From positions 1,915,501 through 1,979,500 of the forward strand of contig NZ_JQNB01000001.1 in the NCBI RefSeq assembly GCF_000745005.1: 64,000 bases of DNA, given 5' to 3'. This stretch comes from Luteibacter sp. 9135. GTDB taxonomy: Bacteria > Pseudomonadota > Gammaproteobacteria > Xanthomonadales > Rhodanobacteraceae. The position numbers and the translations under genes are program-made. Positions 2,495 through 31,474 of this stretch are shown in pieces. The notes under the pieces were generated by a model that did no database searches, had not been told where the DNA came from, and was given only the letters and a program-made list of their open reading frames with translations. Each line of letters starts with the position of its first letter. The stretch's first letter is position 1.

Positions 2495-4801
2495 GTGTCT
2501 CTGGTAATTGACAATAGCGCGCCGCATCGCGGTCCGGGTATGAAACTCGAGCCGGCTAACGATCTGGTGGCCAGTGCCGGCTCGGCGAAGCGCTGGACGT
2601 CCACAGGCCACGATCCCCAGTTCCGCGTCGAGCTTCCAGGCGGCCGCCTGGAAGCCGGCTGGTACGAGGTGACGTGCGACTTGGAGGCCGTCGATGGGGC
2701 GGGCCTCTCCGCAGTGCTTTATCCCGATTTCGGCACGCCGGTGCTGGAATCCGACGGCATACCGCTGTTCGGTGCGGCCACCCGGACGCGCACCTCTATC
2801 ATTGTGCTCAAGCGCGATATCGTCGGCCTGCGCTTCGATCCGCTCAGCAGCGAGGCGGAGTTCGACCTTGAGTTGTTCACCCTCACCAAGGTGGGCCGCT
2901 TCCATGCGGCGCGCGAGATGTGGAGCGCGATCACGCAGCGTTCGGGCGTCGTCATGTCGCGCAAGCGCCTCATCCGGCGCTGTGCATACCAGCTTTTCCG
3001 CAACGGGCCGCGTGCCGTCGGGCAAGCGCTGTATGCGCTGTACCTCGACATCGTAGCGATCTCGCTCTCACGGAACTACCTGAACTGGGTGCTCACGAAC
3101 GACACATGGACGCCGGCGAGGCTGGAAGAAATCAGGGCATCGTTCCGCGGTCGCGAAGATGCGCCCTCGATATCCGTGGTGATGCCCGTCTACAACCCGC
3201 CGGAAAAGTGGCTGCGTCGGTGTATCGATTCCGTCATCGAGCAAAGCTACGAGGCATGGACCCTGTGCATCGCCGACGACTGCTCGCCCAATCCCCGCAT
3301 CCGCTCGGTGTTGAGCGAGTACGCGGCCCGCGACCCGCGTATCAAGGTGGTGTTCCGGGAGAAGAATGGACACATCTCGCGCTCGTCCAATTCCGCACTG
3401 GAATTGGTGACGGGCGATTACGTGGCGCTGCTTGACCACGACGATGAACTCTCGCCCGTTGCCCTGTCCACCATGGCCAAGGCAATCATGGACAACCCGG
3501 ATGCCCAGGTCCTGTACTCCGACGAGGACAAGATCGGTGAGGACGGGATTCGCTTCGATCCGTACTTCAAGCCGGATTTCAATATCGACTTGTTCCGTGG
3601 GCACAACATGGTCAGCCACTTCGGTGTCTATCGCACGGCGTTGCTGCGCGAACTCGGTGGCTTCCGCGAAGGTTATGAAGGCAGCCAGGATTACGATCTG
3701 GCGCTGCGTTGCGTCGAGCGACTGTCGCCCTCGCAGATCGTCCATGTGCCGCACGTGCTCTATCACTGGCGCACCATCGCCGGCTCCACGGCCGCCGGGC
3801 CGCAGGAGAAGAGCTACGCAGGCGTTGCGGCGAAGAAGTCGCTGACGGCGCACTTCGAGCGGGTGGGCATGCGCGGTCGCTTTGAAGAGCTGTCCTCGTT
3901 CCCGGGCAACTTCGCACATATGATCGAGCCAGGCGATGTGCCGCTCGTCTCGATCATCATTCCCACGCGTGACCGCGTTGATCTTCTCAAGCAGTGCGTC
4001 GAGAGCATCCTGGAGAAGACGACCTACACCCGCTACGAGGTGCTGATTGTCGATAACGGGTCGGTCGAGCAGGAAACGCTGGATTACTTCGAAGGGCTAA
4101 CCGTCGCGAACCGGGCGAAGGTGCTTCGCTATGACGCGCCGTTCAACTTCTCCGCGATCAATAATTTTGCGGTAGGCCAGGCTGCCGGCACGGTCCTGGT
4201 TTTTGCCAACAACGATCTGGAAGTGATCTCTTTCGGCTGGCTCGACGAGCTCGTCTCACACGCACTGCGCAAGGAAGTGGGGGCGGTGGGCTGCATGCTG
4301 TATTACCCCAACGATACCGTCCAGCATGCCGGCATCATTCTCGGCCTCGGGCAGGCGCGCATTGCGGGCCATGCCTACCATCTGCAGCAGCGTGGCTATC
4401 CCGGTCAGATGTGCCGAATGCACCTGACCCAGCAACTGTCGGCCGTCACCGCGGCTTGCATGGCTGTTCGGCGCGAGGTGTTCGACGAGGTCGGTGGCTT
4501 CGACGAGGCACTGGGGGTGGCATTCAACGATGTCGACCTGTGCCTTAGGATTCGTGCGAAGGGCTACGCCGTGGTCTGGACGCCCCGCGCCGAGATGTAT
4601 CACCACGAATCCGCATCGCGCGGCCACGACGATGTGGGCGCCCGCAAGGAACGGTTCGACGCGGAGTCTGCGTTCATGGCTTCTCGCTGGGGCGCCGAGT
4701 TGCTCAACGATCCTTATTTCAACCCGAACCTGAGCCTGGACGACGCATCGTTCATGTTCGGTCCGAAGCGCCATGTCCGGCAGTGGCAGGCGGGCGCCTG
4801 A
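2495..4801 (+). CDS. Double-domain family 2 glycosyltransferase
   Basis: About 768 aa. Two GT-A/GT2 domains are visible. The first starts near residue 225 (SVVMPVYNPPEKWLRRCIDS, then IADDCSPN and later LLDHDDELSP and YSDEDKIGEDG). The second starts near residue 485 (VSIIIPTRDRVDLLKQCVES, IVDNGS, FANNDLEV, FNDVDLCLRI). The ~200-residue N-terminal part is beta-rich and not recognised. The GTG at 2495 is preferred because GGGGG lies nine bases upstream; an in-frame GTG at 2471 would add eight residues without a visible ribosome binding site. The arrangement resembles rhamnosyl/mannosyl polymerising GT2 proteins of O-antigen clusters. It probably extends or initiates the glycan exported by the adjacent ABC system. 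A strong hairpin terminator follows. Confidence 0.85.
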   Translation: MSLVIDNSAPHRGPGMKLEPANDLVASAGSAKRWTSTGHDPQFRVELPGGRLEAGWYEVTCDLEAVDGAGLSAVLYPDFGTPVLESDGIPLFGAATRTRTSIIVLKRDIVGLRFDPLSSEAEFDLELFTLTKVGRFHAAREMWSAITQRSGVVMSRKRLIRRCAYQLFRNGPRAVGQALYALYLDIVAISLSRNYLNWVLTNDTWTPARLEEIRASFRGREDAPSISVVMPVYNPPEKWLRRCIDSVIEQSYEAWTLCIADDCSPNPRIRSVLSEYAARDPRIKVVFREKNGHISRSSNSALELVTGDYVALLDHDDELSPVALSTMAKAIMDNPDAQVLYSDEDKIGEDGIRFDPYFKPDFNIDLFRGHNMVSHFGVYRTALLRELGGFREGYEGSQDYDLALRCVERLSPSQIVHVPHVLYHWRTIAGSTAAGPQEKSYAGVAAKKSLTAHFERVGMRGRFEELSSFPGNFAHMIEPGDVPLVSIIIPTRDRVDLLKQCVESILEKTTYTRYEVLIVDNGSVEQETLDYFEGLTVANRAKVLRYDAPFNFSAINNFAVGQAAGTVLVFANNDLEVISFGWLDELVSHALRKEVGAVGCMLYYPNDTVQHAGIILGLGQARIAGHAYHLQQRGYPGQMCRMHLTQQLSAVTAACMAVRREVFDEVGGFDEALGVAFNDVDLCLRIRAKGYAVVWTPRAEMYHHESASRGHDDVGARKERFDAESAFMASRWGAELLNDPYFNPNLSLDDASFMFGPKRHVRQWQAGA

Positions 4802-28670: not shown

Positions 28671-29777
28671 ATGACCGACAAGACCGAACTCAACGCCACC
28701 CACCGCGAACTCGGTGCCCGCATGGTCGACTTCGGCGGTTGGGACATGCCGATCGCCTACGGTTCGCAGATCGAGGAGCACCACGCCGTCCGCAAGGACG
28801 CCGGCATGTTCGACGTCTCGCACATGACCGTGGTCGACCTCACCGGCGAGCGCACCCGCGAGTTCCTGCGCAAGCTGCTCGCCAACAACGTCGACAAGCT
28901 GACCAAGAGCGGCAAGGCCCTCTACACGTGCATGCTCGCCGAGAACGGCGGCGTCATCGACGATCTCATCGTCTATTTCCTGCGCGAAGATTTCTTCCGC
29001 CTGGTCGTCAACGCCGCGACGCGCGTCAAGGATCTGGCCTGGATCGAGAAGCAGGCCGCCGCGTTCGGCGTCACCGTGCGCGAGCGCCCCGAGTTCGGGA
29101 TGATCGCCGTGCAGGGCCCCAACGCCCGCCAGAAACTGCTCGGCCTGCTGCCGGACGAGGTTCGCGAGAAAGCCGGCAAGCTGGGCAAGTTCGCCGCCCT
29201 TGAGGTGGAAGGGCCGAATGGCATGCCGCTGTTCCTCGCCCGCACCGGCTACACCGGTGAAGACGGCTTCGAGGTCGTGGTGCCCAACAGTCGTGTGGTC
29301 GAACTGTGGAACCTGCTGTGCGAGGCGGGCGTCACTCCGGCGGGTCTGGGTGCGCGCGACACGCTTCGCCTGGAGGCCGGCATGAACCTCTACGGCCAGG
29401 ACATGGACGAGACGGTCAGCCCCTGGGAGGCCGCGCTCGCCTGGACGATCTCGCTCGACGAGGGGCGTGACTTCATCGGTCGCGCCGCGCTGGAAGCGAT
29501 GAAGGCCGAGGGTGTGCCTCGCGTCATGATCGGCCTGGTGATGGACGAGAAAGGCGTGCTGCGGCACGGCCAGAAAGTGCTCACCGCCCGCGGCGAAGGC
29601 GAGATCCTCTCGGGTGGCTTCGCACCCACCCTCGGTAAGTCGGTGGCCTTCGCCCGGGTTCCGGCGGGTGACCATGGCGAGGTTCGGGTCGACATCCGTG
29701 GCCGCGAGATTCCGGTGCGCGTGGTCAGGTTCCCGTTCGTCCGCGACGGCCAGCCCATGCCGGGCATCGTCGACTGA
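28671..29777 (+). CDS. gcvT: Glycine cleavage system aminomethyltransferase (T protein)
   Basis: 368 aa, the normal T-protein length. N-terminal [20 protein letters not shown] and [13 protein letters not shown], middle [30 protein letters not shown], and [20 protein letters not shown] are diagnostic. It transfers the methylene group from the lipoyl arm of H protein to tetrahydrofolate and releases ammonia. AAGG lies eight bases before the ATG. gcvH follows 90 bases later. No glycine riboswitch is recognisable in the 125 bases upstream. Confidence 0.97.
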
Positions 29778-29867: not shown

Positions 29868-30263
29868 ATGAGCGAAATCCCAGGCGATCTGAAGTTTGCC
29901 AAGTCCCACGAGTGGGTGCGCGTCGAGCAGGACGGCACGGTCACCGTCGGCATCTCCGACCATGCTCAAGGCGCCTTGGGCGATCTGGTCTACGTCGAAC
30001 TGCCGGAAGTCGGCAGCAGCGTGCAGGCCGGCAACGGTACCGCCGTGGTCGAGTCGGTCAAGGCCGCCTCCGATATCTACGCGCCGGTGTCGGGCGAGAT
30101 CATCGAGGTCAACGCCACGCTGAGCGACAAGCCGGAAACGATCAACGAAGACCCTTACGAGGCTGGCTGGATCTTCAAGCTGAAGGTCGACGACAAGAGC
30201 GAACTCGACAGCCTGATGACGGCCGACGAGTATGCCGAGCTCGCCGAAAACGGCGACGACTGA
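29868..30263 (+). CDS. gcvH: Glycine cleavage system H protein
   Basis: 131 aa. The lipoylated Lys is in [19 protein letters not shown] (about residue 65); other conserved parts are [36 protein letters not shown], and [17 protein letters not shown]. An ACGAGGA ribosome site precedes the ATG; an in-frame ATG 51 bases upstream is outside the conserved protein. It carries the aminomethyl intermediate between P, T and L proteins. gcvP is not in this window. A strong terminator follows. Confidence 0.97.
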
Positions 30264-30287
30264 TCGCCCCTCTTGTGCTTCAACCCG

Positions 30288-30317
30288 ATGCCGGTCGTCC
30301 TCGACCGGCATTTTTTT
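30288..30317 (+). terminator. Rho-independent terminator of gcvTH
   Basis: A perfect 10-bp stem (30288-30297 with 30302-30311), TCCT loop and a run of seven T form a textbook terminator 24 bases after the gcvH stop. Confidence 0.95.
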
Positions 30318-30640
30318 GTCCGCGGGGCGCCTTCGGCGAAATTTTTTTTTCGGCTCAGTCGTCTTCCGTTCATCCCCGGAATTCGCCCCTGAGGCAGTCG
30401 CCGGCCGGTATGAAAATATCGTGCGACGATCCTCGCGCCGCGCATGCTCCTTTACTGGAAAGGCGATAAAAAACGCTTTATTTACGGTGTTTGCTGAACG
30501 GCCTGTCCGTCGCAGCGTGTTTCGTTATGGAAGTCCATTAGTACGCCGACAGCTTCGACGGTAACGCCCACGGCCACCGTGCAGTCCGCTCGATCGTCGG
30601 TTATGTGTCCGCAACGTCTTCAATTTAGAGCCAAAATTTA
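30318..30640. other. Intergenic region between gcvH and the MetJ-fusion gene
   Basis: No convincing gene. A short CGCC-TTC-GGCG hairpin followed by AAA and nine T (about 30328-30350) could be a second weak terminator. The rest is less GC-rich than the coding sequence around it, with AT-rich patches at 30465-30490 and 30620-30645. AACGTCTT at 30613-30620 resembles half of a MetJ box (AGACGTCT). A small RNA cannot be excluded. Confidence 0.5.
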
Positions 30641-30669
30641 TTGACAGCGGAAATGTTGAGGAATAGCTT
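30641..30669 (+). promoter_or_regulatory. Sigma-70-type promoter of the MetJ-histone fusion gene
   Basis: A perfect -35 hexamer TTGACA (30641-30646) is followed after 17 bases by TAGCTT (30664-30669), a weak -10. Transcription would begin near 30676, leaving about 20 bases before the ATG at 30697. The perfect -35 and ideal spacing make this the best promoter seen in the window. Confidence 0.6.
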
Positions 30670-30696
30670 TTGCGTCAATTGACGGGGAACCCGGAA

Positions 30697-31368
30697 ATGG
30701 AAACAGAAAAATTCATCAGGCCGTACGTGGAGCATGGTTCGAAAGCGGGTGCGGTTCGCAAGATCACCGTCTCGATTCCGCTGCATATCCTCCGCCTGCT
30801 ATCCGATGAACGTACACGCCGCCAGGTGAACAATTTGAGGCACGCGACGAACAGCGATTTGCTGGTTGAAGCGTTCCTTCATGCTTTTACTGGGCAACCA
30901 CTGCCAACTGATGAGGAGCTGAGACGAACCATGGCCACTGCCAAGAAAGCCACTGCCAAGAAATCCGCCGCCAAGAAGGCGACGAAGAAGTCCACCGTAA
31001 AGAAGACTGCCGCGCGCAAGACGCCGGCCAAGAAGGCCTCGACCCGCAAGGTCGCGACCAAGAAGGCGTCGACCCGCAAGTCGCCGGTCCGCAAGACCAC
31101 CGCCAAGAAGGCTGCGGTCAAGAAGACCTCGACCCGCAAGGTCGCCACCAAGAAGGCTTCGACCCGCAAGTCGCCGGTCAAGAAGGCCACCACCACCCGC
31201 AAGGTCGCCGCCAAGAAGACCGCCCGCAAGGCAGCTACGCCGCGCAAGGCCGCCGCACCGCGTAAGGCAGCTGCCCCGCGCAAGGCTGCCGCTCCGCGTA
31301 AGGCCGCCACCAAGAAAGTCGCCACTGCCAAGGTCGCTCGCGCTACCCGGACCGCCAAGGTCAAGTAA
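30697..31368 (+). CDS. MetJ-like repressor fused to histone H1-like basic tail
   Basis: 223 aa in one uninterrupted frame. Residues 1-78 closely resemble the methionine repressor Met[11 protein letters not shown], the DNA-reading beta strand RKITVSIPL, helix A with [17 protein letters not shown], and helix B with [12 protein letters not shown]. The last part of normal MetJ (about 30 residues after the LP motif) is absent. From residue 79 the chain is Lys/Ala/Thr/Arg-rich with repeats such as KKASTRK, RKVATKK and PRKAAA, like bacterial histone H1-like proteins. Residue 79 is itself Met (30931), and [11 protein letters not shown] is a plausible stand-alone start with GAGGAG about 14 bases upstream. 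The main start at 30697 is chosen over TTG 30670 because the promoter -10 would overlap the latter. It probably binds DNA; whether it still senses S-adenosylmethionine is unknown. Confidence 0.88.
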
Positions 31369-31446: not shown

Positions 31447-31474
31447 ACCCCGGCTTGCCGGGGTTATTCATTTG
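31447..31474 (+). terminator. Weak hairpin terminator after the MetJ-histone gene
   Basis: An 8-bp GC stem (31447-31454 with 31457-31464) is followed by TATTCATTT, a broken T-run. It sits 78 bases after the stop. The remaining bases to 31602 show no gene. Confidence 0.5.

Follow-up and report, generated by a model that had tools for sequence, protein, structure and literature searches.

MetJ (PF01340; E. coli structure 1cma) is the closest described relative of the N-terminal half of the protein studied here. The ribbon-helix-helix and the ligand-binding core can be aligned, and tandem Met boxes occur in the genus. However, the present protein lacks the C-terminal segment of MetJ and carries a histone H1-like tail instead, and the end of its gene appears to double as the leader of a second open reading frame (ORF). 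AlgP and PhaF likewise combine a folded N-terminal domain with a disordered Lys/Ala/Pro tail of KPAA repeats that is thought to bind DNA, but neither a site-specific repressor domain nor an internal leader is described for them in the available passages of the source (PMC9239181). CdbA shares the ribbon-helix-helix fold, is ligand-responsive and has been proposed to be nucleoid-associated; it differs in its ligand, and the available passages of its description do not mention an H1-like tail (PMC7156744). The synthesis of two proteins from one frame by means of an internal start is known for the long and short forms of CheA and for the infB forms, as far as the available part of PMC12350097 goes. 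In contrast to these cases, sister families encode the counterpart of the short product in a gene of its own, and at the present locus the proposed leader is coding. Finally, Xanthomonas and its relatives possess a stand-alone H1-like gene that shares with the present locus a similar start, the gcvH neighbour and, in seven of eight cases, two leader blocks, but that has no MetJ in front and whose blocks are non-coding and occur in all frames.

With regard to methionine regulation in this order, metJ was reported to be absent from Xanthomonas campestris, according to the part of PMC6230763 that was available. The available part of a comparative study lists four Xanthomonadales without MetJ and with SamR instead (PMC4239095). 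In the open-licence PMC literature, a fusion of MetJ with an H1-like tail was not found among the matches listed, and searches there for MetJ in Rhodanobacteraceae and for MetJ together with histone H1-like proteins returned nothing. Such proteins are already present in sequence databases, where they are named MetJ (best 120 of 968 matches listed).

The window, i.e., the whole stretch of 64,000 nucleotides of Luteibacter sp. 9135 that was analyzed, contains an uninterrupted frame of 223 codons at 30697-31368 on the forward strand (ORF reading; window coordinates). The initial annotation had described this frame as a MetJ that continues without a stop into a 145-residue H1-like tail, and this was confirmed by the frame itself and by two Pfam matches above their cut-offs. 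PF01340 (MetJ) matched residues 5-88 (E 5.9e-37; 126 bits vs. a cut-off of 25), and PF07382 (HC2, histone H1-like) matched residues 80-220 (E 2.7e-11; 44.4 bits vs. a cut-off of 40). The NCBIfam MetJ equivalog NF003622 scored 132.4 bits (cut-off 110), and E. coli MetJ 1cma aligned over residues 5-88 of the long frame (E 7.3e-32). The assignment of residues 1-78 to MetJ thus stood as regards the domain, while its border was refined: the MetJ-like part stops at about residue 77 and the H1-like tail begins with Met79. Position 1 of the model NF038053 (hist_H1_lk_Burk equivalog) falls on this Met79, in a match of 36.3 bits that lies below the model's cut-off of 80. An AlphaFold model of the protein had a mean pLDDT of 50.9 and was too poor for use. 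The metJ-H1 gene is the single MetJ match in the genome, which consists of one contig of 4,485,268 bases. PF07382 is a low-complexity family, and other Lys/Ala-rich stretches of the genome match it too, one of them above the cut-off. Lys/Ala-rich stretches were seen in other proteins of the same genome (L092, L094, L096 and L097), among them, by sequence reading, one topoisomerase I-like and one Ku-like protein. The features of the locus are listed in Table 1.

Table 1. Features of the metJ-H1 locus in window coordinates.
Feature	Position	Strand	Basis
gcvT (glycine cleavage T protein)	28671..29777	+	ORF; similarity upstream of metJ-H1 in named loci; name by sequence reading
gcvH, immediate upstream neighbour	29868..30263	+	ORF; sister-family relative named GcvH
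Putative metJ promoter, TTGACA-17-TAGCTT	30641..30669	+	Direct reading; similar across 23 upstream regions of relatives
MetJ coding part, codons 1-77	30697..30927	+	Profile matches, 1cma alignment, pN/pS
Dual-use element, metJ codons 63-77, proposed leader of the H1-like ORF	30883..30927	+	Synonymous conservation, shared blocks
Block A, ACTGGGC	30889..30895	+	Common to non-coding leader of stand-alone H1 genes
Block B, ACTGATGAGGAGC, with Shine-Dalgarno-like GAGGAG at 30913-30918	30907..30919	+	Common to stand-alone H1 leaders
Putative internal start codon (Met79 in the 223-codon frame)	30931..30933	+	Conserved Met, NF038053 position 1
H1-like ORF, 145 aa, Lys/Ala/Arg-rich; tail of MetJ, proposed also as separate protein	30931..31368	+	
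Terminator-like hairpin CCCCGGCTTGCCGGGG, then TTATTC	31448..31469	+	Direct reading

MetJ was detected in 145 of 398 genomes of the order, namely in each of the 125 that belong to the own family (f1) and in 20 elsewhere (13 in f9, six in f12 and one in f8; families counted by hand). The named loci L002-L081 suggest that f1 corresponds to the Rhodanobacteraceae (Luteibacter, Dyella, Frateuria, Rhodanobacter, Dokdonella, Tahibacter and others). The open MetJ frames of f1 comprise 137-399 aa, except in G380, where MetJ lies in pieces at two contig ends; one of the f1 genomes, G390, holds an internal TGA. Outside f1 the frames comprise 80-106 residues, with one exception of 143. A search for the same domain order in Rhodanobacteraceae, proposed in the initial annotation as a check, was successful: 76 of the 80 named loci are in frame across the junction, with Met at residue 79 or 78. 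Five of these 76 reach a contig edge soon after the junction (L023, L036, L037, L058 and L069), and the total length of the complete fused loci is 113-387 aa. The remaining four loci are the unfused outgroups L080 and L081, L076, whose contig ends just before the Met, and L009, from a Luteibacter MAG, whose contig has the same length as contig C45 of G390. In L009, a stop interrupts metJ at codon 42 (position ~6124), with leader and H1 frame intact; this may be a real loss or a MAG error. Upstream of metJ-H1, gcvH is present in 73 of the 80 loci, and the seven without a detected gcvH are five with a short upstream flank and the two outgroups. Most named loci with enough flank show a TonB-like ORF downstream.

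As noted initially, the C-terminal segment of MetJ after about residue 80 is absent from the fusion. It is also nearly absent from L194 and L195, unfused MetJs from a different family within the order, which end four residues past the same point (TDEELARPE and TDEELARSE, each followed by a stop); other unfused MetJs are longer at the C-terminus. Since L194 and L195 are unfused and equally short, the short C-terminus need not stem from the fusion, and its interpretation as a consequence of the fusion was weakened.

The MetJ half is constrained as a protein and looks functional. Over codons 5-62, comparison of the own gene with those of ten relatives yielded pS values of 0.26-0.82 and pN values of 0.02-0.19. 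At positions that contact DNA or SAM in the E. coli structures, the residues K22, T24, R41, E58, F64 and L69 are the same as in E. coli in the 1cma alignment; the position of R41 is occupied by Arg in just 67% of 78 loci. Several Rhodanobacter proteins have His at codon 41 (E. coli Arg42), which is a SAM-contact position.

The genus also possesses candidate operator sites for MetJ. In 19 genomes of the genus (17 with MetJ demonstrated and two outside the MetJ sample), tandem AGACGTCT-like Met boxes gave 52 matches as compared with six for the reversed pattern (up to two mismatches; overlapping matches in triple arrays counted separately). Eleven genomes of the order in which MetJ was not found gave 0 matches vs. 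9 for the control, and G011, which has an unfused MetJ, gave 16 vs. 0. The own genome alone barely exceeded the control, with 9 vs. 5 matches at up to three mismatches, and the Met-box case rests on the genus-wide count.

The surroundings of the box sites were examined at 47 loci of relatives and at two of the own genome. In the largest cluster obtained by blastp clustering, comprising 15 loci (14 of relatives and that of the own genome), the boxes lie beside the ORF of MetX, homoserine O-succinyltransferase, as identified by an NF006449 match in the own genome and in the one relative tested. The metX boxes often adjoin TTGACA; the own metX operator (G000:C1:188669-188700) was included at three mismatches. 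In several relatives, a divergently oriented gene lies on the other side of the boxes at metX (L159, 2192-3235, and similar ORFs that make up the second cluster), and the one tested was a cysteine synthase. A further ten loci carry tandem boxes before an ORF cluster of which three of three tested members were TonB-dependent-receptor-like (L111, L121, L124, L155, L158, L165, L167, L168, L174 and L179), which suggests MetJ-controlled uptake via these ORFs. The best array of the own genome consists of three boxes, one pair with one mismatch (L184, ~3630-3653; G000:C1:3203629-3203652), and adjoins a gene for a chemotaxis receptor as well as an ORF region of which the piece tested gave no Pfam match.

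Before metJ itself, a box pair was found in 53 of 74 relatives (up to four mismatches), mostly at -165 to -190, and the reversed box in 0 of 74; the best pair before metJ in the own genome has 7-8 mismatches. The pair about 170 bases before metJ (window 30263-30697) has been lost in the Luteibacter-like clade, the own genome included. At metF, a good Met-box pair was not found in 16 own-genus loci (L126-L138, L140, L141 and L143, the own genome being L131), two of which had a pair at four mismatches (control 0). In all 16, metF is immediately preceded by a 24-base palindrome that is nearly perfect (ATCTTTCCATCTGGATGGAAAGAT or a close variant) and that resembles the SamR motif (ATC-..-GAT) described in the available part of PMC4239095. 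Since metF has a SamR-like palindrome and no good box pair, methionine control seems to be split between MetJ and a SamR-like regulator, and the MetJ regulon of the own genome is, judged by these predicted sites, partial. MetJ and Met boxes are thereby extended to a branch of the Xanthomonadales outside the four genomes listed in that study, as far as its available part goes, alongside a SamR-like metF site.

Translation from the ATG at 30697 would yield a MetJ repressor that has kept its DNA-binding ribbon and SAM-binding core and that ends in a presumably disordered, strongly basic H1-like tail. With SAM plentiful, MetJ-H1 would bind the tandem Met boxes at metX and at some other promoters, and the tail would add non-specific DNA contacts. 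On a conservative view, MetJ-H1 would act as a specific repressor with an extra, non-specific grip on DNA, and a SAM-sensing repressor would thus join the proteins with H1-like tails. The fusion might instead be mainly a global DNA condenser steered by MetJ, i.e., a SAM-responsive nucleoid protein. This is conceivable but unlikely: the tail matches the H1-like family, and CdbA provides an example of a nucleoid protein of the ribbon-helix-helix type that has a small-molecule ligand (available part of PMC7156744), but the Met boxes at metX and before metJ of relatives point to a specific repressor, and a total length that varies from 113 to 387 aa among complete fused loci argues against a fixed fusion architecture.

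At the junction of the two halves, selection is apparent beyond the protein level. The 15 codons before Met79 are nearly frozen across 78 loci, even at silent sites (GCT TTT ACT GGG CAA CCA CTG CCA ACT GAY GAG GAG CTR AGA CGN), and the codons CCA, ACT, GGG and AGA of this stretch are uncommon elsewhere in the same gene. On a 72-locus tree of GcvT, the product of a neighbouring gene, codons 63-77 required a mean of 2.27 Fitch steps vs. 14.07 for the codons up to 62, of which 41 were usable (Mann-Whitney p 8.5e-8). All 76 fused loci whose sequence extends to the junction have the Met there. Six unfused MetJ loci share the residues TGQPLPTD, with varying codons. A 27-base core of the stretch (up to three mismatches) occurs in 124 of 125 f1 genomes and in 0 of 273 others, including the 20 with unfused MetJ; the reversed core was found in none of the 398 order genomes. 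Because the core is frozen in f1 and absent with unfused MetJ, something appears to act on the nucleic acid here and to be tied to the H1 part. The conserved internal start codon is preceded by the Shine-Dalgarno-like GAGGAG at a spacing of 12 bases (nine in 6 of 58 distinct f1 sequences), which is long for a Shine-Dalgarno sequence. The sole f1 genome without the core, G236, has GTG in place of the junction ATG and ordinary codons before it, with the fusion open; element and ATG were apparently lost together in this genome, and the GTG could still be a start.

The same blocks recur before H1-like genes that have no metJ. In the surroundings of gcvH of 16 non-f1 genomes, a stand-alone H1-like gene without metJ was found in 7 of 7 genomes of f2 and in the single genome of f3, and in 0 of 8 of other families within the flank available. 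These genes start with MATKKAA or similar. Family f2 includes Xanthomonas, since over the 128 residues that were searched the GcvH of G061 (f2) and that of X. arboricola are identical. The eight genes had been found by gcvH adjacency, independently of the motif. Upstream of their start codon, seven have ACTGGGC together with ACTRAYGAGGARC, with a wider spacing in one of the seven; the eighth has neither. The exact pattern ACTGGGC-N8..30-ACTRAYGAGGAGC-N3..14-ATGGC was present in 161 of the 398 order genomes (reversed pattern, 0), i.e., by hand count in 112 of 125 of f1, 46 of 128 of f2, 3 of 3 of f3 and 0 of 142 others.

Reading frames were compared in distinct sequences, most of which had been picked by the bipartite pattern. 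Among the 58 of f1, both blocks keep the frame of the start without exception. Among the 20 of f2, block A is found in each of the three frames with respect to the start codon (5, 10 and 5 sequences), the spacing of the blocks varies from 13 to 30 bases, and 10 have an in-frame stop within about 70 bases before the start. Thus, by comparison of frames and patterns, blocks that belong to the coding sequence in one family precede the same gene as non-coding sequence in two others. The leader of f3 is close to that of f1 beyond the Shine-Dalgarno sequence as well (GAGGAGCTAAGAC, CTAAGAC) and can be regarded as a bridge between the f1 and f2 leaders. With the Shine-Dalgarno sequence masked, the local alignment of f1 and f3 leaders exceeded shuffles (p 0.0005-0.0015); single f1-f2 pairs with GAGGAG masked gave weak values (p 0.003-0.15).

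A stable or conserved fold was not found for the leader. Its folding was no better than that of shuffles, the consensus fold of -1.95 kcal/mol was reached by 2 of 60 column shuffles, and Rfam gave no match at the element and nothing near the gathering score in four sister loci. A fourU-like stem masking the Shine-Dalgarno sequence was also considered. The mean longest pairing was 5.76 vs. 5.45 for shuffles in f1, 5.15 vs. 4.15 in f2 and 6.0 vs. 4.99 in f3; pairing of the element start with the Shine-Dalgarno sequence was thus hardly above shuffles in f1, and clear masking was not seen. Three other readings of the element were rejected. A frameshift or hidden peptide at the junction was discarded upon hand reading: although the CTR codons preserve a -1 frame stop in most cases, no ATG is conserved in that frame. 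A hammerhead-like core (CUGAUGAG..GAA) spotted by eye is broken in Dokdonella-type loci. A promoter inside the element is contradicted, by eye, by the length of contiguous conservation in f1 and by the variable block spacing in f2.

Two proteins, MetJ-H1 and H1 by itself, are probably encoded in a single frame, and the end of metJ would serve as the H1 leader that was kept where metJ was lost. The internal ATG at 30931, with GAGGAG 12 bases upstream and a leader of about 45 bases, would give rise to the H1-like protein alone; the leader would consist of the last 15 metJ codons, which would hardly change silently because the same bases act as leader. The initial annotation had treated the fusion and a start at residue 79 as alternatives. 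Since residue 79 matches the start of the stand-alone gene of the sister families and the leader blocks are kept, both starts are probably used instead.

As to the origin, the ancestor of f1, f2 and f3 may have acquired an arrangement with metJ between gcvTH and an H1-like gene, immediately before the latter, such that the ribosome-binding region of H1 fell within the metJ end. The two frames would then have been joined in f1 (Rhodanobacteraceae), while in f2 (Xanthomonas and kin) and f3 metJ would have been lost and its end retained as an untranslated H1 leader. On balance, the last 45 bases of metJ are somewhat more likely than not to be a dual-use element, at once the end of a repressor and a translation leader for H1, that outlived the repressor in Xanthomonas and its kin and is non-coding there now. 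If true, a protein-coding segment became an mRNA control element, and one stretch of DNA is under two simultaneous kinds of selection in a clean, testable case. Natural contrasts are at hand: the element is coding in one family and non-coding in two, G236 lost both start and element, and L009 combines a broken metJ with an intact leader. The loss of metJ in this scenario would also offer a history for its reported absence from X. campestris (PMC6230763, available part).

The direction of evolution might have been the opposite. The two-block leader would then have been that of an old stand-alone H1 gene, onto which metJ recombined later through a chance resemblance of its codons to the leader. 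The stand-alone H1 with its leader in two sister families fits such a course, as does the result that upstream of the stand-alone H1 genes no longer metJ remnant was found. However, the peptide TGQ..TDEELRR, part of which can be read from the leader, is largely common to unfused MetJs, the f3 leader matches f1 after the Shine-Dalgarno sequence too (CTAAGAC), and a chance likeness of both blocks is improbable, at ~1e-6 without the Shine-Dalgarno sequence by a rough personal estimate. This course of events therefore appears unlikely.

A separate question is whether the internal start is used. If only the fusion protein were made, Met79 would be a relic of the joining, and codons 63-77 would be frozen for another reason at the nucleic-acid level that has nothing to do with translation initiation, such as a protein, a small RNA or a DNA-level site. 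The long Shine-Dalgarno spacing and the retention of the fusion in G236 after loss of the ATG are in line with this. It is nevertheless quite improbable, as the frozen stretch ends at the start codon, holds the Shine-Dalgarno-like core and recurs in stand-alone H1 genes as the non-coding leader that immediately precedes the start codon, and as G236 lost element and ATG together.

The reverse notion, that H1 alone matters and that the metJ part is a decaying leader, is suggested by the metJ stop of L009 with its intact leader and H1 frame, but it is very hard to reconcile with a pN far below pS over codons 5-62, with MetJ in 125 of 125 f1 genomes and with the enrichment of Met boxes. A base or assembly error joining two genes, which the initial annotation had named as a possible refutation, was practically eliminated by the recurrence of the same fusion in many independent records (all f1 genomes with MetJ; 76 of 80 named loci) and by family frames of matching length. 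The two-protein reading with a dual-use leader is therefore preferred. Upstream of the H1 leader of f2, a GC-rich inverted repeat, GCGGGTCCGACTCCCGC and variants, recurs in L222-L224, L226 and L230-L232.
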